Below, in pieces: positions 3,586 through 48,204 of a stretch of 64,000 bases of DNA. The notes beneath the pieces are model-generated. The model worked only from the letters and a program-made list of their open reading frames with translations, did not search any database and was not told where the DNA came from. The DNA comes from a virus. The position numbers and the translations under genes were made by a program. The stretch covers positions 1 through 64,000 of the IMG/VR virus record IMGVR_UViG_3300037189_012690; one strand, given 5' to 3'. Position 1 is the stretch's first letter; each line of letters opens with the position of its first letter.

Positions 3586-4644
3586 ATGAATTTCTACGAT
3601 AACATAATAAACTTAGATATAGAGAACAGCAGTATATGTAATGCTGCATGTCCACAATGCTTACGTGAAACATATCCGGGTGACTATAGTTGGTTCAAGC
3701 AAACACACTTGACAACAGAGTTCTTTGACCGTATACCCGATCATGTATATGCAAATATAAAAAAGATATTATTCAGTGGCACAATGGGAGATCCGTGCGC
3801 TGCCCCAAACTTTATTGAGGTAGTAAAGAAGGCTAGAGAGAAAGCTCCTAATGCTATGATTAAGATTAGCACTAATGGTGGCATGAAGAACCCTATATTT
3901 TGGACTATGTTAGTAGAAGCATTAGGTCCCAATCATGAGGTTAACTTTGCTATAGATGGGTTATCGAATACTAATCATATCTATCGTATGAATGTAAACT
4001 ATCAGAAGGTAATGGTTAACAGTATAGCATTCATTAATGCAGGTGGTATTGCTAATTGGCAGTTCATTGTATTCAAACATAATCAACATCAAGTAGATGA
4101 AGCAAAAGAACTTAGCAAAGACTTAGGCTTTAAAAACTTTATCATTATATCTAGTCATAGATTCGCATTAGATAATATTTTAGGTCGTAGACCTGTTGGT
4201 ACAGATGGAGTTATAATTGAGCCACCAACTGATGAGAAATATGTACACAGTGTGGTCATGCAACCATTAAAGAAATTAGATGTACAGCAATGGTTAGATA
4301 GTAGTGAGAATAGTAATATAGATTGCTATGCTAAGAAAGACCGTAGTGTATATATTGACAGTCAGGGTAATGTATTTCCTTGTTGTTTCTTAGGTGCTAG
4401 TTTATATAGCAGAGTAACATTAACTGTACCCGATGGTTGGGATCATCTTTGGGATACTGAAGGTAAAAGTAAAGTTAATCTATATGAAACTGAGTGGCAT
4501 AACATCATAGACAATGTATTTTATAACAAGATACAAGAGAGTTGGGATGGGCGTAAATATAGTGAGGGTCGCTTAGCAGCATGTGCAGGCAATTGCGGGA
4601 ACTTTACGGGTAGAATAAACAATCCTACTGTTTGGGACAATTAG
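3586..4644 (+). CDS. Radical SAM/SPASM-type protein
   Basis: 352 aa. The radical-SAM motif is near the N terminus (SICNAACPQCLR; C18, C22, C25). A C-terminal cysteine-rich part (YIDSQGNVFPCC, then CAGNCG) looks like a SPASM or twitch auxiliary-cluster domain. SPASM enzymes often modify peptides or proteins, although many act on small molecules. Its stop overlaps the convergent methyltransferase stop by 4 bp. Substrate unknown. Confidence 0.85.
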   Translation: MNFYDNIINLDIENSSICNAACPQCLRETYPGDYSWFKQTHLTTEFFDRIPDHVYANIKKILFSGTMGDPCAAPNFIEVVKKAREKAPNAMIKISTNGGMKNPIFWTMLVEALGPNHEVNFAIDGLSNTNHIYRMNVNYQKVMVNSIAFINAGGIANWQFIVFKHNQHQVDEAKELSKDLGFKNFIIISSHRFALDNILGRRPVGTDGVIIEPPTDEKYVHSVVMQPLKKLDVQQWLDSSENSNIDCYAKKDRSVYIDSQGNVFPCCFLGASLYSRVTLTVPDGWDHLWDTEGKSKVNLYETEWHNIIDNVFYNKIQESWDGRKYSEGRLAACAGNCGNFTGRINNPTVWDN

Positions 4645-5234
4645 TATTTGTTTCCAATAATCATATAACGAGTATATAGTGGCAATTCAAACTCGCCACT
4701 ATACTCTACATCAATGTCACTCTGACTTACAAATTCTTCTAAACTGTCAACCACTCTAACGTGTTCATCAATCTTATAATCATTACTTTGTAACACTATA
4801 AGACTGTTCTGAGGTATGCCGCTTAGCCACATATCATATTCATCCTGTGATATATGTTCACAACTTGTATTGATAATGACATCCGCATCACTACGTATAT
4901 TACACATATCTGCGGTTACTGCACGAAAACGTCCTGCTATTTCTTCTAACTTATTCATTGTGCGACAAATTTCTTCACATGAAGGATCAATGTCTACACT
5001 ACGAATATTCTTTACAGGCATATTGCTTTGGAATATCATACTTGCTAATACTCCGTTCCAACCACCGTGTATATCAAAACTCATAGGCTCAACTATGAAT
5101 GGAGTTAGTTCTTCTATTAGCCAACGCTTACTACGTAATTGACCCTTCCAAAATGATTCTAATGTGCGCTTAGGGTCACTGCTATTACGTATAGCATCCA
5201 TCCAAAACATTACATGGTCTAAGTCAATTTGCAT
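4641..5234 (-). CDS. Class I SAM-dependent methyltransferase-like protein
   Basis: 197 aa. MSFDIHGGWNGVLASM resembles motif I of class I methyltransferases, SVDIDPSC is the acidic motif II that binds the SAM ribose, and INTSCEHI lies at motif IV. The first glycine-rich loop is less canonical than usual. The start overlaps the end of the upstream radical-SAM gene by 16 bp, so both are probably translated from one message. Substrate unknown. Confidence 0.65.
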   Translation of the reverse strand: MQIDLDHVMFWMDAIRNSSDPKRTLESFWKGQLRSKRWLIEELTPFIVEPMSFDIHGGWNGVLASMIFQSNMPVKNIRSVDIDPSCEEICRTMNKLEEIAGRFRAVTADMCNIRSDADVIINTSCEHISQDEYDMWLSGIPQNSLIVLQSNDYKIDEHVRVVDSLEEFVSQSDIDVEYSGEFELPLYTRYMIIGNKY

Positions 5235-6199
5235 TTTGGTATCTTACTGTCTGCACTACTCACGCAACTAGGAGTCACACAAACTTTTGGTTCACTGAAT
5301 AAGGTAAAGCCATTATCTAATGTGCCTAATATTTCATCACGACAACTATAGCCACGCTTAACCTCATTACTACGTATTATAACACTTTGATATCCTGAAT
5401 TACAACTCCATCCTTCAAACTTATTAAACCCAAACGCATTGAATCTTTCTGCTTGATCCAATTCATATTCAGTATCGTTTTCATATAATTTGATTTGATA
5501 GAACTGTGTCTTTTTATGTTGCTGTGGAAAACCGTTACGCATAAGTGTAATCATTTCATCATTGTAGCCGCTTACTATCTCTGTGGCAGTATCATTACTT
5601 TGTGGCTTTAATGTTACATTTATTCCTTTATCACTAAATCGTTTGCAACGGGCATATAGTTCATCAAACTGATCAGGTACCATTACTTGATTGATAGTAA
5701 CATGTACATTTTCGCCCATTAAGAATAAACACTTGTCAGTGAATTCACTTTCGTTTGCAAACTCACTATGAAAACTTGCAGTGATTGACTTACGTTGAAT
5801 CAACTCAGTTGCCATTCCCCAATTCATCCACCACTTCTTACTAGGGCTTAAATTAGTAGTCAGGTGTATGCTTTGATAGGGAGTAACATTATCATCTAGG
5901 TGTCTGATTAATTCTAGTAGATGTTTATATGCAGTTGGCTCACCACCACTAAAAGACCAATGAAAGTCTCTGAATCCATTTGCTTTGGCTTGACGTTTTA
6001 TTTCGTCTATAGATTTTTTATATGTATCTAGTGATTGATAGTCTGGTGTACTGGAGTTAGCATAGGGCCAACAATATGAGCATTTATAATTACAGAATCT
6101 TCCTAGTATCCAACTAATAGAAAAAAGAGGATATTGCAACATTGTCTGTTGCCCAAATTTTGTTATTCTATCAAATGGTATCTTATCAAATTCGTTCAT
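5219..6199 (-). CDS. Radical SAM protein
   Basis: 326 aa with the cluster motif GRFCNYKCSYCWP (C36, C40, C43), followed by the typical FSGGEPT segment that helps bind SAM. Cysteines near the C terminus (CNSGY, GYSCRDE, CVTPSC) suggest an additional iron-sulphur cluster. It is translationally coupled to the methyltransferase downstream and overlaps the glycosyltransferase-like gene upstream by 14 bp, giving a three-gene minus-strand operon. Confidence 0.85.
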   Translation of the reverse strand: MNEFDKIPFDRITKFGQQTMLQYPLFSISWILGRFCNYKCSYCWPYANSSTPDYQSLDTYKKSIDEIKRQAKANGFRDFHWSFSGGEPTAYKHLLELIRHLDDNVTPYQSIHLTTNLSPSKKWWMNWGMATELIQRKSITASFHSEFANESEFTDKCLFLMGENVHVTINQVMVPDQFDELYARCKRFSDKGINVTLKPQSNDTATEIVSGYNDEMITLMRNGFPQQHKKTQFYQIKLYENDTEYELDQAERFNAFGFNKFEGWSCNSGYQSVIIRSNEVKRGYSCRDEILGTLDNGFTLFSEPKVCVTPSCVSSADSKIPKCKLT

Positions 6200-10409: not shown

Positions 10410-10474
10410 GAACGTTCCGTTGTCAACGGATACTCTGACCCGCAGGATTCTATTAGAGTTTGATAAATAAATGT

Positions 10475-11059
10475 ATGAGAAAAAAATACAATATTCAAAC
10501 TCCAAAAGATTTCTACGTTTATGCATATTTAAGAGCTAAAGACGGAAGACACGGAAAAAAAGGAACTCCTTATTATATAGGGAAAGGTAAGGGTAGACGA
10601 ATTGTAGAAACCCATAATAAAATATCTTTGCCGCCTGATGGCAAAAATATTATATTGATAGCTGACGGATTAACTGAAATAGGAGCATTTGCGATTGAAC
10701 GTAGACTCATTAAATGGTATGGCAGAATCATTGATAGTTCTGGAATACTATTAAACAAAAGTGAAGGCGGAGAAGGTAGCAGTGGGTTCAAACAGGATCG
10801 TGAAGTAGTAGAAGCAAGAGCCAAGAAACTACGGGGAAGAAAAAACTCAGAGGAGTTGCGATTAAGGAAAAAATTAGCTCGCCAACAACAAGAACCGTTT
10901 AGTAAAGAAAAACAGGATATAGTAAATCAAAAAATAAGTCAAAATAAAAAAGGAAAACCAAATGGAAAATTAGGAATTCCTATGACTATTGAACAAAAAG
11001 AAAAAATTCGCCTAGCTCAATTAGAAAGATGGCGAATTCGTAAAGAACGTGAGTGTTAA
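10475..11059 (+). CDS. GIY-YIG homing-type endonuclease
   Basis: About 194 aa from the ATG at 10475; a TTG-initiated extension from 10460 is possible. The GIY-YIG core is visible as DFYVYAYLR, then GTPYYIGKGKGRR with the catalytic arginine, then the glutamate-bearing helix IGAFAIERRLIKWYGR. The lysine/arginine-rich C-terminal half contains two short KGKP/LGIP-type motifs like NUMOD DNA-binding modules. Like the HNH gene, it is embedded in the tRNA region and next to a structured RNA. GATAAATAA just upstream resembles a late promoter. Confidence 0.85.
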   Translation: MRKKYNIQTPKDFYVYAYLRAKDGRHGKKGTPYYIGKGKGRRIVETHNKISLPPDGKNIILIADGLTEIGAFAIERRLIKWYGRIIDSSGILLNKSEGGEGSSGFKQDREVVEARAKKLRGRKNSEELRLRKKLARQQQEPFSKEKQDIVNQKISQNKKGKPNGKLGIPMTIEQKEKIRLAQLERWRIRKEREC

Positions 11060-11069
11060 TCACACTCTA

Positions 11070-11300
11070 TTCTGGTCCGGAAGATGAGAAGCGAGGTAAT
11101 TCCTCGTAGGACCTTACACTTAGGCGAAAAGTGCGCTGGCAATGCGAGAACGGACCCTGTCGGGGAGCGGGTGGAAGGTATTTAACAGTTGATGCGGCGA
11201 AAGCTAGACGAAGCTGTTAGTACTATAATTACCGCCGAGGGTCGCAGAGCATTTTAATGATTTTCATTAGTATCAGCCAATGATTATCTGCAATACCTTG
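11070..11300 (+). ncRNA. Candidate structured RNA between GIY-YIG gene and pqqA
   Basis: Two nested domains can be folded by eye. Domain 1: GGTCC (11074) with GGACC (11109-11113) encloses CGAGG/CCTCG. Domain 2: AAGGTATT (11175-11182) with AATACCTT (11292-11299) encloses AACAG/CTGTT (11184, 11214) and GCAGA/TCTGC (11244, 11287), a three-way-junction layout with coaxially adjacent stems. GC content is higher than in neighbouring genes and there is no ORF. It matches no RNA family that I recognise. It might be a stand-alone RNA or a relic of an element mobilised by the GIY-YIG nuclease. Confidence 0.5.
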
Positions 11301-11323: not shown

Positions 11324-11349
11324 TTAAATACATATGCAGTATATGTATT
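11324..11349 (+). promoter_or_regulatory. Late-type promoter plus inverted repeat before pqqA
   Basis: TTAAATAC (11324-11331) resembles the late element. AATACATAT (11328-11336) and ATATGTATT (11341-11349) form a 9-bp inverted repeat, a possible operator or 5' hairpin. TAAGGAG at 11354-11360 is the ribosome-binding site. Confidence 0.5.
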
Positions 11350-11366
11350 CATTTAAGGAGAATAAC

Positions 11367-11438
11367 ATGTGGACAATACCTCAAGCAACTGATTTGCGTT
11401 TTGGTTTTGAAATCACAATGTACATTGCAAATCGCTAA
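11367..11438 (+). CDS. pqqA: PqqA-like coenzyme PQQ precursor peptide, 23 aa
   Basis: The whole product is 23 residues, [12 protein letters not shown] followed by [11 protein letters not shown]. It matches the PqqA family along its length: an N-terminal MW, a central DLR-x-GFE, and the invariant Glu and Tyr separated by three residues (E15, Y19). In PQQ biosynthesis PqqE cross-links this Glu and Tyr and the peptide is then processed to pyrroloquinoline quinone. A TAAGGAG sits 7 bases upstream, and a terminator follows at 11465, so the gene is monocistronic. No pqqB-E homologue is seen in the window, so the peptide would have to feed host enzymes. Confidence 0.9.
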
Positions 11439-11464: not shown

Positions 11465-11485
11465 AGGGTAGCTTGCTACCTTTTT
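11465..11485 (+). terminator. Rho-independent terminator after pqqA
   Basis: GGTAGC and GCTACC flank a 2-base TT loop, followed by TTTTT. Confidence 0.85.
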
Positions 11486-27962: not shown

Positions 27963-28472
27963 ATGAACAATGATAAAATTTTAGTCATAGGCGGAACTAA
28001 AGGCCTTGGGCTAGAGATAGTTAATAAATTTAATGCACAAGGTATAGGACGCAGCAATGGATATGATAGTGTCAATATTCAACCTATATTAGAACTTAGT
28101 GAAAAATTTTCTATTGTTATAAATTGTCTTCCGAACGATGATCAATATGATGTTGTTGCTCAGATGGTAAAGTATCATAGTGATAAAAATTTAAGCACTT
28201 ATTTTATTACAGTAGGTAGCATGAGTTATCGGATAAATGACCAGTATCATGTTAAAAATAAATTGGTTAGATTAAATGAACAATTATTGTTAACTAGGTC
28301 TAGCGTCAAACATACACTGATTAATCCAGCAGAATTATTTAATACTCCGCAAACTGTATATTGTGACAGAATTAGCAAAGAAGAAATATTAAGTACATTT
28401 GAATTTTTAATAAACACTAATCTTTGGGCATCTACAATACCCTTGATTGAAATTAGAGGTCCATTGAAATGA
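27963..28472 (+). CDS. Short-chain dehydrogenase/reductase-like protein
   Basis: 169 aa from ATG 27963. ILVIGGTKGLGLEIV is the N-terminal Rossmann G-x-x-x-G-x-G motif that binds NAD(P). A reduced core follows with a VGSMSY segment at the usual catalytic-serine position. It is short for the family (about 250 aa) and lacks a clear Y-x-x-x-K, although YHVKNK may be the remnant. Possibly not catalytic. Confidence 0.65.
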   Translation: MNNDKILVIGGTKGLGLEIVNKFNAQGIGRSNGYDSVNIQPILELSEKFSIVINCLPNDDQYDVVAQMVKYHSDKNLSTYFITVGSMSYRINDQYHVKNKLVRLNEQLLLTRSSVKHTLINPAELFNTPQTVYCDRISKEEILSTFEFLINTNLWASTIPLIEIRGPLK

Positions 28473-41764: not shown

Positions 41765-41772
41765 GTATTTAT
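41765..41772 (-). promoter_or_regulatory. T4-type late promoter
   Basis: GATAAATAC on the minus strand, about 70 bases upstream of the ATG at 41695. Confidence 0.55.
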
Positions 41773-41789
41773 CTGGAAAGATTGTACCA

Positions 41790-42245
41790 ATGGTAGTCAA
41801 AAAAATAATAAAGGTGGCTGTTCTAACTGCACTAACCAGCGTAGTTTATGCTGCGCCTTTACCCGATTATAGTTTTAAAAGTCCATCCTTTAATGGTATT
41901 GGATACAGCAGCCACGTACTTACTATAGAGAATCAGGAACATACTAGAAAAGAACAATTGAGGAAAGATATACAGTCAGCAATAGATAAGGCTGCAGCAG
42001 ATGCCAAAAACACAAATCTACAGAAATTCCTTAATAACTTAGAATCACGAATCTATGCACAAATCAGTCAAAACTTAGCAACTGCTATGTTTGCTAATGG
42101 TGGTAGTAATAGTGGTACACTGAACTTTGAGGGGAATAATATTTCATGGACGAAAGATTCTAGCAACGTATATTTGACAGTAACAGATTTAGTAGGGAAC
42201 ACCACACAGATTACAGTACCATTAGGACAATTTCAATTTCAATAA
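41790..42245 (+). CDS. csgF: Curli assembly protein CsgF-like
   Basis: 151 aa. The signal peptide (residues 1-21, ALTSVVYA|A) is followed by the CsgF layout. An N-terminal segment (DYSFKSPSFNGIGYSSHVL) corresponds to the part that inserts in the CsgG pore. A helical middle follows (NNLESRIYAQISQNLATAMF). A C-terminal beta domain (VYLTVTDLVGNTTQITVPLG) ends the protein. CsgF sits at the outer surface and couples secretion to curlin nucleation. The TAATG overlap with csgG shows translational coupling. Confidence 0.9.
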   Translation: MVVKKIIKVAVLTALTSVVYAAPLPDYSFKSPSFNGIGYSSHVLTIENQEHTRKEQLRKDIQSAIDKAAADAKNTNLQKFLNNLESRIYAQISQNLATAMFANGGSNSGTLNFEGNNISWTKDSSNVYLTVTDLVGNTTQITVPLGQFQFQ

Positions 42246-43387
42246 TGAGAACAATAAAAATATTATTATTACTAAGTTTATTATCAGGATGTGCAGTATC
42301 GCAAAACGAGCGTATGGGGTCAGCTCCTAAACCTGTTAATATGCCAGTAATGATGCAAAAAGAATTTGATAAGATTCCGGGTCCTGCAGGTGGACAACCT
42401 ATTACAGTAGCACTGTATGGATTTACAGATAAAACAGGTCAGCGTAGACCACAACAAAACGTAGCAAGTTTAAGCACTGCAGTAACACAAGGCGGTGAAA
42501 TGTTTTTGATTAAAGCATTGCAAGATGTAGGACAAGGTAAGTGGTTCAAAGTAGTTGAACGTGTAGGCATAGATGGCTTAACACGTGAACGACAATTGAT
42601 TCGTCAAATGCGTGAAGCATATGAAGGATCAAATGCTAAGCCTTTGCCACCTATGATGTTCGCCGGTATATTATTAGAAGGTGGCATAGTTGGATATGAT
42701 AGTTCAACTAAGTCAGGCGGTATGGCAGCACGTTGGTTAGGCATAGGACCTCAAACACAATATAGTGAAGATATTGTTACTGTGAGTATCCGTGCTATCA
42801 GTGTAAGCACAGGTGAAGTATTAGCAGCAGTAACAATGCAGAAAACAATTGTTAGTGCAGGTGACTCAGTAGCAGCAATGAAGTTCTTTGACGTGGGCAC
42901 CAAAGCGTTTGAATTTGAAGCAGGGTTAACTGTAAATGAGCCAGGGACATTTGCAGTTAAGAGTGCAATTGAAGCAGCAGTGCTTGAATTGATTAAAGAA
43001 GGTGCACGTAAAGGTATCTGGGCAATTGAAGATACTAAACCTGGCGTAATAATTATACCCGCTTCAAAGCAAGAACCTAAGGTGGAAACAAAAAAAGAAG
43101 ATGTAAAGAAAGAAGAACCTAAGGTAGAAGTAAAAGAAGAACCAAAAGAAGAGCCTAAGGAAGAAGTTAAATCCGAAGAGCCAAAAGTACAAGAAGTTGA
43201 CACACACAGTGAAACAAAAGAATCAAATGATAATAGGTTTGCTCAAAAAAGTAAAGTATTAGTGATGATACCTATAAAGATGAGTAAGCCTACTATTAAG
43301 ATGAAACAAGAAGAAAAACATGCTAGAAAAATTAGCAATAAAAAACAGGTCATTAAGAACCTGCACAATAAAAAAAAGAAAAAGTAA
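42245..43387 (+). CDS. csgG: Curli secretion channel CsgG with long charged C-terminal extension
   Basis: 380 aa. Lipobox LLSGC (C16) marks an outer-membrane lipoprotein. The CsgG core is clear: ITVALYGFTDKTGQRRP, LIKALQDVGQGKWFKVVER, and MFAGILLEGGIVGYDSSTKS followed by GGMAARWLGIGPQTQY and VSTGEVLAAVTMQKTI. CsgG forms a nonameric pore exporting curlin. Beyond about residue 270 is a Lys/Glu/Pro-rich extension and a very basic C-terminal tail, absent from normal CsgG (about 277 aa). Confidence 0.97.
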   Translation: MRTIKILLLLSLLSGCAVSQNERMGSAPKPVNMPVMMQKEFDKIPGPAGGQPITVALYGFTDKTGQRRPQQNVASLSTAVTQGGEMFLIKALQDVGQGKWFKVVERVGIDGLTRERQLIRQMREAYEGSNAKPLPPMMFAGILLEGGIVGYDSSTKSGGMAARWLGIGPQTQYSEDIVTVSIRAISVSTGEVLAAVTMQKTIVSAGDSVAAMKFFDVGTKAFEFEAGLTVNEPGTFAVKSAIEAAVLELIKEGARKGIWAIEDTKPGVIIIPASKQEPKVETKKEDVKKEEPKVEVKEEPKEEPKEEVKSEEPKVQEVDTHSETKESNDNRFAQKSKVLVMIPIKMSKPTIKMKQEEKHARKISNKKQVIKNLHNKKKKK

Positions 43388-43403
43388 GGACTCGTGAAAA
43401 ATC

Positions 43404-44183
43404 ATGAAAACAAAAATAGTAGTAATGATGGCGTTATTAACTTTAGCCAGTGTTGCTATATCAGGGGACAACAAAGTTTATTTGGATCAAATTGGTGATC
43501 GTAGCACTATTACTATAACTCAAGACGGATCGAGCAACACCGTTAAGGGTATAGGAATAGCACAAGATGCTAATGCTAAAATATATGGTGATGATACTGC
43601 AGTAACAATCACACAAACAGGTATCAACAATCGTTTAACATTAGGTATTAACGGCGGATCATTAGGTTCAACAAACGTGTTCAGCTACAGTGTTTCAGGT
43701 AACAATGGCATTGCACTTATAAATTGTAATGACGCTGAAACAGGAAAATGTAATCGTAACAATATTGGTATTACACAAGTAGGTAATAATTCACAGGCTA
43801 ACGTTTCAATTAGCGGTGAAAACAATGTAGTTACTGGTAACAGTGCAGGTGGTAATAACAATGCAATGAACTTTAACATCATTGGTGATGGATTACATCC
43901 TAGCATTGGTATCACAGGCGGTGGCGGTAACACAGGTAATATTACATTAGCTCCTAGTGTAGGTATTAATGCTACTGCTACTATGGTTATAGCGGGTGCT
44001 AATAATAATGTGTCTATTAATCAAACTGGTGGTGCAGTACTAGGACATAGTGCTACATTAGCAGTTACAGGTAGTGGCAATACATTATCAGTAACTCAAT
44101 CAGGTACTGCAGGTGATAACACATTTAATTTACAAAGTTCAGGAAGTACTAATTCATTTACAATAACACAAACTGCCCAATAA
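43404..44183 (+). CDS. Curlin-repeat amyloid subunit (CsgA/CsgB-like), 259 aa
   Basis: A Sec signal (TKIVVMMALLTLASVAISG) precedes repeated curlin motifs of the form N-x-h-x-I-x-Q-x-G-x-x-N: YLDQIGDRSTITITQDGSSN, VTITQTGINNRLTLGING, IGITQVGNNSQANVSISG, VSINQTG, LSVTQSGTAGDN, and SFTITQTAQ. It is longer and more irregular than E. coli CsgA, with Gly/Asn-rich inserts. It would be exported by CsgG and polymerise outside the cell. Located 16 bp after csgG, with no promoter between. Confidence 0.92.
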   Translation: MKTKIVVMMALLTLASVAISGDNKVYLDQIGDRSTITITQDGSSNTVKGIGIAQDANAKIYGDDTAVTITQTGINNRLTLGINGGSLGSTNVFSYSVSGNNGIALINCNDAETGKCNRNNIGITQVGNNSQANVSISGENNVVTGNSAGGNNNAMNFNIIGDGLHPSIGITGGGGNTGNITLAPSVGINATATMVIAGANNNVSINQTGGAVLGHSATLAVTGSGNTLSVTQSGTAGDNTFNLQSSGSTNSFTITQTAQ

Positions 44184-44193
44184 GGGGAAGGAG

Positions 44194-45303
44194 ATGAAAA
44201 CATGGTACCTAAGAATATCCTTACTATTGCTGAGCATATCGCCAATGAACGTAAACGCAGCAATAGGGACGATAACGGAACAAGTTCAGACTCCGCCTTC
44301 GATACTACGACAGAAGCAGACGTTGACGGGGTCCAAAGGGACTGGACTGGAGATGTTAGATACGGTAAGAACCCAACAGGGAAAAGTGGGACTCACGTTC
44401 GCAGACAACACAAAGGTACAGGTAACGGAGAATAGTAAACTAGTTATAGATGATTTTGTTTATGATCCTAACAGCAAGACAGGTGGAAAACTTGCTGTTA
44501 ATATAGCATTAGGTACCGTACGTTACGCATCAGGTCAAATAGCAAAGAACAATCCACAATCAGTAGCAGTTAATACTCCATCAGCCACAATTGGTGTTCG
44601 TGGTACAGACTTCACCGCAGCAGTAGATGAACTTGGTCGTAGTACTATTGTGTTGTTGCCTAGTTGTCCAGTAGGCTGGCGTGATGTTAAAACAGATTGT
44701 AAGACAGGTGAGATTAGTGTAACAAGTGATGAAGGTGTTGTGATAATGAATCAACCTTTTCAGGCTACTGTAGTACAAACACGTGAAACAAAACCTATGA
44801 AGCCAGTTATATTAAAACTGGATGAAGACCAAATGAATAATTTATTGATTATGACTCCAGTTAAATCTGAGAACAACAATGAAGCACGTGGTGATACTAA
44901 AAAAGGTTTTCTAGACGTTGATTATTTAAAATATGAAGGACTAGATAATGTATTAGCAACACAAGATCCATTCAAGTATAGTAAATTAGATGTTAATTTT
45001 TTAGAAAGAGATTTTCTAGTTAATATACTTGATTTAATTAATGCTATGCTTAAAGCGCAGATGGATTATTTAGAGAATGCTAATGCTAGACTGTTACCTG
45101 ATTATGTAGCATTAACTGGTGTAGTAGCAGTCATTGAAGATCCAATTGTGCAATTATGTCGTGAAGATAATGGCAGTAACATTGCATGTGCTACAGTAAG
45201 ACAAACTAGAGATGTGACTATTACTATTAATCAAGAACGTATGGAATTTAAGAATCGTGTCAATGCAGGTGGCACAAGCAATATAACAATTACACAACAT
45301 TAA
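44194..45303 (+). CDS. FecR-domain secreted protein ending in a curlin-like motif
   Basis: 369 aa with a signal peptide (LLLLSISPMNVNA|A). The FecR domain is visible in VGLTFADNTKVQVTENSKLV, GTVRYASGQI and the signature TPSATIGVRGTDFTAAVD. The C-terminal third is helical, then ends VNAGGTSNITITQH, which matches a curlin repeat half. This suggests the protein can dock on or seed the fibre. FecR-domain proteins often sit beside CHASE2 cyclases, as here. The start overlaps no gene; 2 bases separate it from the next. Confidence 0.9.
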   Translation: MKTWYLRISLLLLSISPMNVNAAIGTITEQVQTPPSILRQKQTLTGSKGTGLEMLDTVRTQQGKVGLTFADNTKVQVTENSKLVIDDFVYDPNSKTGGKLAVNIALGTVRYASGQIAKNNPQSVAVNTPSATIGVRGTDFTAAVDELGRSTIVLLPSCPVGWRDVKTDCKTGEISVTSDEGVVIMNQPFQATVVQTRETKPMKPVILKLDEDQMNNLLIMTPVKSENNNEARGDTKKGFLDVDYLKYEGLDNVLATQDPFKYSKLDVNFLERDFLVNILDLINAMLKAQMDYLENANARLLPDYVALTGVVAVIEDPIVQLCREDNGSNIACATVRQTRDVTITINQERMEFKNRVNAGGTSNITITQH

Positions 45304-45304
45304 G

Positions 45305-45898
45305 ATGAACTTTAGACTAGCTACTATATTATATTTTGTTTTAGTTTTACTACTATTAGTGGTGGGTTATGCATGGAGTGCAGACAATACAATTAGTGTA
45401 GATCAAATTGGTACTGGCAATACAGTTACTATTGAACAAACAGGGTTAGGACACACCGCCACTATAAACACAGGCAGTATTAGTGATGTAGATTATTCTG
45501 TGTTTACAATAACTCAACAAGGTGCTGCTAAAACAGCAACCGTTGAAGTTAAAGCCGGAATTAATAACACAATAGACATTAATCAAAGTGGTTCAGGTAA
45601 TCACATAGCTAACATACAGAATTTACAAGGTAATGGTAACAGTATTACTATAGGACAAACAGGTTCAGGATCTCATACTTTAATTGTTGATGGTAATAAT
45701 GTAAATAATGGTAACACTATAACATCTACCCAAAGCGGTGATGTAGGATCAGATAAATGGTTTAAAGTTTATCTACACGGTGCAACAAATGCAACAGTCA
45801 ATGTAGTACAGGATAATCCAACTACAGTAGACCAAGCAAGTATTATGATTAACTGTGCCCCAGGCACGTGCGGCATGTATAGTTATATTAAACATTAG
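45305..45898 (+). CDS. Second curlin-repeat protein (CsgB-like), 197 aa
   Basis: A long hydrophobic N-terminal signal or anchor (LATILYFVLVLLLLVVGYAW) is followed by curlin repeats: ISVDQIGTGNTVTIEQTGLG, FTITQQGAAKTATVE, IDINQSGSGNHIANIQN, ITIGQTGSGSHTLIVDG. The C terminus (SIMINCAPGTCGMYSYIKH) has two cysteines and departs from the repeat. The retained hydrophobic N terminus and odd tail would suit a nucleator such as CsgB, but the role split between the two curlins is inference. Confidence 0.88.
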   Translation: MNFRLATILYFVLVLLLLVVGYAWSADNTISVDQIGTGNTVTIEQTGLGHTATINTGSISDVDYSVFTITQQGAAKTATVEVKAGINNTIDINQSGSGNHIANIQNLQGNGNSITIGQTGSGSHTLIVDGNNVNNGNTITSTQSGDVGSDKWFKVYLHGATNATVNVVQDNPTTVDQASIMINCAPGTCGMYSYIKH

Positions 45899-45907
45899 AC
45901 TATAAGA

Positions 45908-46051
45908 ATGAACATTGAATTAATTCTACGTATGATTGAACATGGTTATACTGTGCAGGATATCCATCTAAGACTTAGACACCGTATAGAACTAATAGAA
46001 CTAGTTATCCAAAATCATGAAAAATGGAAGCGGGAAGTAGAACAACAATAA
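45908..46051 (+). CDS. Small helical protein, 47 aa
   Basis: ATG at 45908, 10 bases after the CsgB-like stop. Predicted helix-rich with RMIEHGYTVQDIHLRLRHRI; the segment may form a small helix-turn-helix. Last gene of the curli transcript before the terminator. Function unknown. Confidence 0.5.
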   Translation: MNIELILRMIEHGYTVQDIHLRLRHRIELIELVIQNHEKWKREVEQQ

Positions 46052-46073
46052 TAAAGTAGTACGGTAGTTTTTG

Positions 46074-46113
46074 GTAGCGGTCTAATTATATCTAGTTAGA
46101 CTGCTATTTTTTT
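46074..46113 (+). terminator. Rho-independent terminator ending the curli transcript
   Basis: GTAGCGGTCTAA pairs with TTAGACTGCTAT (one G-T pair) across an AT-rich loop, followed by seven Ts. Confidence 0.85.
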
Positions 46114-46117
46114 GTGT

Positions 46118-46125
46118 CTAAATAC
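46118..46125 (+). promoter_or_regulatory. Late-type promoter
   Basis: CTAAATAC, 24 bases before the cyclase ATG, with TAAGGTAG between. It overlaps the end of the terminator region. Confidence 0.6.
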
Positions 46126-46149
46126 TATTACAAACTATAAGGTAGATAG

Positions 46150-48204
46150 ATGATTAAGAAAATATTATTAAGCCCTTGGACTTCACTAATAACACTAGCA
46201 TTGTTAGCATTATTGCGCATTGCAGATCCTGCATTTGTGGAATCAATTCGTCTACGATATTTTGATACTGTAATAATCAGTCAACCTATAACACAAAACA
46301 ACATCTACACCGTAAACATAGATGAGGCTACACTAGATAAGTATGGACAATGGCCTTTACCCAGAAATGAATATGCTAATCTAATTGATGAATTATATAA
46401 ACGTCATGCGGGGCTTGTAGTGTGGAATATATTAATGCCTGAAGCCGATCGTAACGGACAAGATGAAGCACTAGCAGAATCATTAGCAACTCATCCTGTA
46501 GTATTAAGTAACACACCTTCAGCACGTAGTAAGAATACACCTAAACAAGTTGGTGTAAGTATTATGCGTCCTGAATTTGTTGATAGAATTGTAGTGTATC
46601 CTGGATTAATTGCTAACGTAAGCCCATTAGAAGAAAATGCTGCAGGTGTTGGTATTGCAAATGTAATGCCTGAGATTGATGGTGTTAATCGTAGATTACC
46701 TTTAGTAGTAAGTGTAAATGATTTACTATATCCTTCAATAGCATTAGAAACATTACGTGTTGCTGCAGGTGATCCAAGTTTTCAAATTAAATTAAATGAA
46801 CTAGGTGTAGAGAAAATGCGTATACCTCAGTTCGGACCAATCAGCACTGATCCATTAGGTCGTATATGGATTGATTGGAGTCAAAGTAATAAGAGTGTAA
46901 GTGCAGTTGACTTACCCGCAGACTTTGGTGGTGCAATAGTAATCGTAGGAACAAGTGCAGCAGGTATAGCTAATCCAGTACCAACAGCACGTGGTGCAGT
47001 ATATCCACAAGATGTACAAGCAGCAGTAATTGGCACAATGATTAATGGAGTTAACATCGAACGTCCTGATTGGATAGACGGTGCTGAGATATTAGGCTTG
47101 ATACTAGTAGGTCTAATAATTATTTTTATATCAAGGTGGACATATGCTGGAATTATTATATCTGTCATTATTATTGGCAGCGTTGTGCCCGGTAGTTTTT
47201 ATACTTTTACCAAGTACAAATGGCTTGTCGATGCCACTGCGCTTATTGTTAGTAGTGTGTTGGTTATGCTACATTGCTATGGCATTAAGTTCATAAGTGA
47301 ATTTTTACAAAAACAACAAATTAAGAAACAGTTTGGTACATACTTATCACCAGACTTAGTTGCACAATTGCAACGACAACCCGATCTACTTAAGTTAGGT
47401 GGAGAAAGCCAAGAATTGTCTATTATGTTTACTGATGTTCGTGGCTTTACAACAATCAGTGAACATTATGGCAAAGACGTTCAGGGTCTTACAAAGATCA
47501 TGAATAGGTACATGACTGCTATGACAAAAAAGATACTAGAAAACAAAGGTACATTAGACAAGTATATTGGCGATGCACAAATGGCTTTCTGGAATGCTCC
47601 AGTAGGTAATAGCAATCATGCAAAAGATGCTGTTAAAACGGCATTAGAGATGATGGAAAGTTTAACTGAGTTCAATGAAGAAATTACGAAAGAAGGTGTG
47701 CCAGCTTTTGGTATGGGTCTGGGAATCAATACCGATACTGTTGTTGTGGGAAATATGGGGTCTAGTCAACGTTTTGACTATACTTGCCTTGGTGATGGTG
47801 TCAATCTTGCTTCACGTTTGGAAGGACAGTCTAAGCCTTATGGTGTCAAGATTGTATTAGGACCTAAGACAGCAGAACAGATAAGTGATGATTACTTCAC
47901 ATTAGAATTAGATATTATAGCAGTAAAAGGTAAGACTGAAGGTGTTAGAATCTTTACAGTATTAAAAACAGATGCAAACTCAATGGCAGAATATTTAGTA
48001 TCACGTGTAGAACATGACCTGATGCTGGATCACTACCGCAAGCAAAAGTGGGATGAAGCATTAGAACTACTGAACCAACTTCATGGGGAATTTGATTCAG
48101 AGATGGACAAATACTATCATATGATGATAGAAAGAATAGGAGAACTACGTGAACAAAATTTACCTTCTGATTGGGATACTGTGTATCGCACCAACTCTAA
48201 GTAA
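46150..48204 (+). CDS. CHASE2-domain adenylate cyclase (class III)
   Basis: 684 aa. An N-terminal helix and a periplasmic CHASE2 sensor (about 30-310) lead to three membrane helices (about 313-380) and a cytoplasmic cyclase domain. Metal aspartates are D429 (MFTDVRGFTT) and D475 (YIGDAQMAF). K471 is the adenine-selecting lysine, T545 sits where class IIIa enzymes have Asp (DYTCLGDGVN), and N552/R556 stabilise the transition state. It should make cAMP. Placement after the FecR and curlin genes suggests signalling from the fibre or envelope (inference). Confidence 0.93.
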   Translation: MIKKILLSPWTSLITLALLALLRIADPAFVESIRLRYFDTVIISQPITQNNIYTVNIDEATLDKYGQWPLPRNEYANLIDELYKRHAGLVVWNILMPEADRNGQDEALAESLATHPVVLSNTPSARSKNTPKQVGVSIMRPEFVDRIVVYPGLIANVSPLEENAAGVGIANVMPEIDGVNRRLPLVVSVNDLLYPSIALETLRVAAGDPSFQIKLNELGVEKMRIPQFGPISTDPLGRIWIDWSQSNKSVSAVDLPADFGGAIVIVGTSAAGIANPVPTARGAVYPQDVQAAVIGTMINGVNIERPDWIDGAEILGLILVGLIIIFISRWTYAGIIISVIIIGSVVPGSFYTFTKYKWLVDATALIVSSVLVMLHCYGIKFISEFLQKQQIKKQFGTYLSPDLVAQLQRQPDLLKLGGESQELSIMFTDVRGFTTISEHYGKDVQGLTKIMNRYMTAMTKKILENKGTLDKYIGDAQMAFWNAPVGNSNHAKDAVKTALEMMESLTEFNEEITKEGVPAFGMGLGINTDTVVVGNMGSSQRFDYTCLGDGVNLASRLEGQSKPYGVKIVLGPKTAEQISDDYFTLELDIIAVKGKTEGVRIFTVLKTDANSMAEYLVSRVEHDLMLDHYRKQKWDEALELLNQLHGEFDSEMDKYYHMMIERIGELREQNLPSDWDTVYRTNSK

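Follow-up and report, generated by a model that had tools for sequence, protein, structure and literature searches.

PqqA is the peptide consumed in the established pathway of PQQ synthesis. One peptide is spent for each PQQ formed, and so the substrate, unlike the reusable enzymes, needs continued synthesis. Cyanophage psbA offers a precedent for a phage bringing its own copy of something that host energy metabolism keeps using up. Though the role of psbA is similar, it codes for a protein subunit subject to turnover, whereas PqqA is a substrate with one used per product.

There is a bacterial counterpart in Methylophilaceae, where, according to the available portion of one study, 3–12 copies of pqqA accompany single copies of the other pqq genes (PMC4109929), and where a separate pqqA copy is described as highly expressed in the available text of another (PMC9851590). 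Like the phage gene considered here, these copies stand alone, away from pqqBCDE, and they raise substrate dosage, but they are chromosomal. The closest phage case is the T4-type phage population VP_266 of Lake Baikal, assigned to Methylophilaceae, for which PMC7678222, in the part available, describes a pqqA, along with methanol dehydrogenase from the same Baikal phage populations. PqqA is also listed as an auxiliary metabolic gene in the accessible text of PMC13188868. Since PqqA had been printed for the Baikal phage, phage pqqA is of a kind already known. However, that report concerns one phage, and its available part is silent on solo-unit anatomy, conservation and spread. A search outside subscription journals and supplements found no publication on the spread and architecture of viral pqqA, and earlier notice elsewhere is possible.

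A solo pqqA gene

The window, meaning the whole stretch of DNA analysed, is 64,000 nts from a virus record of 64,596 bases. On its plus strand, at 11367–11438, is an ORF of 23 codons followed by the stop TAA. A reading made earlier from the sequence only had taken its product to match PqqA along its full length, including the Glu and Tyr that become PQQ, and proposed a search with PF08042. That search gave 36.2 bits (cut-off 21.1, E 5.6e-9) with all 19 model positions covered, TIGR02107 gave 31.8 bits (cut-off 20), and the PQQ-forming Glu-x3-Tyr is present as E15 and Y19. A PqqA search of the whole record returned this single match. The ORF is confirmed as a true copy of pqqA. That it is a chance ORF, as the sequence-only reading had also denied, is rejected by the passing of two curated models, the single match in the record, the conservation in 80 of 80 relatives and a low pN/pS.

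No pqqB–E gene adjoins it, as would be the case in a pqqABCDE operon, and the absence of any other visible pqq gene holds up: pqqB–E of Acinetobacter as queries matched nothing in the window, and the three radical-SAM ORFs found there gave no match to the PqqE model at E ≤ 0.01. These three ORFs (598–2061, 3586–4644 and 5219–6199) differ from each other, one being like B12-binding methyltransferases and one having a SPASM domain. The same solitude characterizes viral loci elsewhere. None of the 80, 51 and 80 viral loci of three scans has pqqB–E, which 51 of 80 bacterial loci do have. Solitude alone is no proof of viral origin, because solo pqqA occurs in bacteria too. Relatives of reference phage proteins occur in 77/80, 36/51 and 72/78 of the viral loci versus 2/80 of the bacterial (though stretch lengths differ), gp23 is in 4 of 17 viral records, and one terminase model is matched by 8 of 24 viral records, 7 of them above cut-off.

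The gene has its own ribosome-binding site, AAGGAG, at 11355–11360, six bases before the ATG, and directly before this is a 5′ hairpin of 10 pairs, AATACATATGCAGTATATGTATT, at 11327–11349; both, the latter as an inverted repeat, had been correctly noticed in the sequence-only reading. A terminator had also been claimed. Sequence and folding do reveal a terminator-like stem, GGTAGCTTGCTACC, followed by TTTTT at 11467–11485 (the stem portion is 11467–11480, with the T5 behind it), but the terminator scan assigned the stem to the minus strand alone. The late-type promoter is unproven, since a scan for promoters gave no plus-strand site of sigma-70 type at the window pqqA. Further upstream, 11060–11290 is a G+C-richer stretch whose fold is not unusual, between pqqA and an ORF at 10460–11059 which, from its motif, we presume to encode a homing endonuclease. 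A structured RNA in this stretch is not claimed, because there was no Rfam match at E ≤ 5 and the fold z was −0.70.

The phage and its host

The window is a phage fragment. It is 35.7% GC, has 16 tRNA genes, encodes DnaK, ClpX and a ClpP-like protease, and contains PHROG matches of endolysin and head-maturation-protease type; neither gp23 nor a terminase model was matched in the 64,596-base record, itself a fragment. S21- and Hsp20-type genes, and a curli block with a cyclase of Melnitz/HTVC008M type, are common to the window and the T4-like methylophage Melnitz. The curli and cyclase block, at 41766–48201, comprises CsgF, CsgG, curlin and FecR with a CHASE2-type cyclase, and the cyclase also matches that of Pelagibacter phage HTVC008M. 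With phage-type genes in the window, and with cultured phages carrying pqqA, the gene is in a phage genome and not in host flank.

No nucleotide relatives of the pqqA region were found among phage records. A viral record of 57.6 kb (G003, which contains locus L011) is from a relative of the window phage, its DnaK being 73% identical. There also pqqA adjoins tRNAs and the layout of the unit is repeated; its hairpin, ATACATGTGCAGTACATGTAT, differs by a two-sided change that keeps the pairing, and GAGAGGTAGCTTGCTACCTCTTTTC is at the position equivalent to the window's terminator-like stem. The same record has a tmRNA (L441:9923–10306) with the tag ANAANDEVFALAA, and a tmRNA is annotated in Melnitz-2 also.

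A host with PQQ-dependent dehydrogenases, such as a methylotroph, had been suggested, with Methylophilales among the candidates. The host is probably betaproteobacterial, but not necessarily of the Methylophilales, for which support is weak: the last 17 residues of the window PqqA are identical to those of Oxalobacteraceae, Derxia and Methyloversatilis PqqA, whereas the best Methylophilaceae match is 74%. The window DnaK is at best 72–74% identical in the G002 family versus 70–72% in the G001 family, a margin too weak to assign a host.

Distribution among phages

The sequence-only reading had proposed looking for the same ORF in related phages, since so short a gene is usually missed. A tblastn search with the window peptide gave 12 matches among 50,697 phage records. 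Nine are cultured Methylophilales/Methylophilaceae phages (MEP301, Venkman, P19250A, MEP401, MEP402 and four Melnitz), and the remaining three comprise podovirus ctXG6705 (Manatee Spring) and two records under the name Acinetobacter phage MD-2021a. Of these two, the one examined is a bacterial pqqABCDE operon. The annotation tables of seven of the phages (MEP301, Venkman, P19250A, MEP402, MEP401, Melnitz-1 and Melnitz-2) have nothing on the same strand at the pqqA site. There is no mention of ‘pqq’ in the MEP301 paper (PMC8024684) or in the available part of the Venkman paper (PMC8163748), and in the Melnitz paper PQQ appears only in the growth medium (PMC9004378). P19250A is stated, in the accessible text of PMC7678222, to have none of the reported auxiliary metabolic genes; this is contradicted by its unannotated pqqA ORF at 28085–28153 on the minus strand.

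At least four lineages, Melnitz included, carry the gene, since the terminases of MEP301, of Venkman with ctXG6705, of MEP401/402 and of P19250A are absent from each other's best 12 matches, and since Venkman and P19250A have been placed in one genus-level cluster (PMC8163748, in the part available). In IMG/VR at least 592 stretches encode PqqA relatives (592 were confirmed among the at least 600 picked out by a first scan), of which 80 were kept for analysis, and each of the 16 large records chosen from that scan holds exactly one PqqA. A pattern with Met before the Glu (GME type) yielded 51 more stretches, each of which reads as a short PqqA-like peptide. Some of these (among L219–L269, for example MKWSAPIVQEVCVGMEVTSYESAEIDTFN) we take to be alphaproteobacterial types of PqqA, and if so the practice probably extends beyond methylophages. 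One carrier of both a terminase and pqqA is a viral record of jumbo-phage size (G329, 356,312 bases, locus L466).

The presence of pqqA is patchy and not universal among related phages. Counted over 17 records of at least 20 kb from 160 loci, it is in 5 of 6 relatives by Venkman-type terminase and in 1 of 11 by MEP402-type terminase. One record, G318, keeps a gene that neighbours pqqA elsewhere without pqqA itself, and tblastn found no PqqA match in the MEP402 relative MW202697, of whose 45 kb 36 were also read.

Selection on the peptide

Failure of related phages to conserve the Glu-x3-Tyr had been named beforehand as what would tell against a functional gene. The pattern of the third scan ends at Gly13, so that residues 14–23 were unsearched, and it counted 120 stretches. 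The refuting outcome was not seen: in all 80 loci examined the peptide is 23 residues long and has both Glu15 and Tyr19. For codons 14–23, comparison of 74 distinct sequences gives pS 0.742 and pN 0.072 (pN/pS 0.097). With 130 distinct sequences, taking pairs of 80% identity or more, the ratio is 0.13, though part of these were found by motifs including the residues concerned. Viral pqqA is under strong purifying selection, and is kept by selection across phages.

The 5′ hairpin

Dereplicated viral relatives have a Shine-Dalgarno sequence in 59/60, 31/33 and 46/48 cases in three sets, and a 5′ hairpin just before it is enriched. With position left free, the first hairpin test was weak, 7 or more pairs being found in 29 of 60 viral upstreams versus 60 of 201 controls. 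Scored as a stem ending 14–28 bases before the ATG with a score of 14 or more, which 5.6% of shuffles attain, a hairpin is present in 37 of 96 dereplicated viral pqqA upstreams versus 42 of 364 Shine-Dalgarno-bearing control ORFs (p 8e-9) and, among controls in which every upstream frame contains a stop, 27 of 205 (p 1.6e-6). The 14–28 interval was chosen after viewing the data and then applied unchanged to 48 new dereplicated upstreams, where 18 have the hairpin (p 2e-5 against the earlier controls). All these p-values are optimistic because the sequences are related. Bacterial pqqA upstreams, including those of some scattered Methylophilaceae copies, differ in being without enrichment (11 of 75, of which set only part are solo Methylophilaceae copies). 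The hairpin is not universal in viral pqqA, as under half have one.

In several viral upstreams there is a TATAAT-like hexamer about 6 bases before the stem, and the RNA would therefore start with the stem. The hairpin may stabilise the short pqqA mRNA. A terminator is flagged after the stop in only 15 of 95 viral pqqA loci.

Dosage and methanol oxidation

In a sample of Methylophilaceae, 149 of 150 genomes have pqqA and 141 have at least two matches, with up to 12; in the G002 family, 38 of 145 genomes have it, 32 of the 38 with one match. Where hosts carry excess copies, the phage gene would therefore add to a dosage that the hosts already raise. A link to methanol oxidation is seen in a related marine viral record of 72 kb (G013), which has the same cyclase family and genes for DnaK, GroEL and ribonucleotide reductase. 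Within 9 kb (L562:13989–18783 and L563:1887–2789) it has a cassette of an XoxF-like methanol dehydrogenase, a formate-dehydrogenase-like molybdopterin protein, pqqA and a SoxYZ fusion. A PQQ dehydrogenase is present in only this 1 of 17 viral records. A literature search found no paper on phage-encoded formate dehydrogenase together with methanol dehydrogenase.

What the gene does

The window ORF is very probably a functional PqqA precursor gene that serves the phage as an auxiliary metabolic gene, and the best reading of the comparisons is that the phage would supply the consumed substrate of the host PQQ pathway. A small transcription unit of the infecting phage would yield the 23-residue peptide, host PqqD/PqqE and the later enzymes would crosslink and trim it to PQQ, and PQQ-dependent alcohol and methanol dehydrogenases would be kept supplied while host transcription fails. 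To this extent the sequence-only interpretation, taken as a whole, is partly supported.

A solitary 23-residue mimic would also be enough to act as a decoy, tying up host PqqD/PqqE, lowering PQQ and stopping methanol oxidation. However, a decoy has no need of the PQQ-forming residues that all 80 listed loci keep, and the position of pqqA beside methanol dehydrogenase in G013 is against it, so that we regard this as improbable. Slim chances attach to radical-SAM enzymes of the phage itself turning the peptide into a different product. Though the window has three such ORFs, one with a SPASM domain, they are at least 5 kb from pqqA, none is recognised by the PqqE model, and no radical-SAM annotation is seen in MEP301, Venkman and P19250A, which are small phages whose peptide is of the same type. 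Passenger host DNA or bacterial contamination comes to mind from the many scattered pqqA copies of Methylophilaceae and from the two of 12 phage-collection matches with the Acinetobacter phage name, but complete genomes of cultured phages carry pqqA, pN/pS is about 0.1 and the hairpin is enriched in viral copies; the isolates largely refute it, and it is very improbable. The framing hairpin and terminator-like stem could suggest a leader or a small-RNA scaffold with an irrelevant peptide, but this is scarcely credible given that variation is free at synonymous sites and not in the amino acids (pS 0.74, pN 0.07).

Returning to substrate supply, we consider it on balance probable that phages infecting PQQ-making bacteria commonly carry a stand-alone pqqA that has been overlooked, in several unrelated lineages and with peptides of both Methylophilaceae-like and alphaproteobacterial types. 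In many the unit would be reduced to a minimal mRNA, with a 5′ hairpin and a ribosome site between the promoter and the 23 codons with their stop. The gene would lift a substrate bottleneck in cofactor supply, as an auxiliary metabolic gene whose product is itself the consumable substrate rather than an enzyme.

Methylotroph phages are plentiful in lakes and coastal seas. Because pqqA is too short for annotators, yet is in cultured methylophages and hundreds of viral contigs, a possible phage effect on methanol oxidation has been undercounted. Whether PQQ synthesis in infected cells is limited by PqqA supply becomes testable, as cultured phage–host pairs exist: Venkman or Melnitz with H5P1, and P19250A with IMCC19250.
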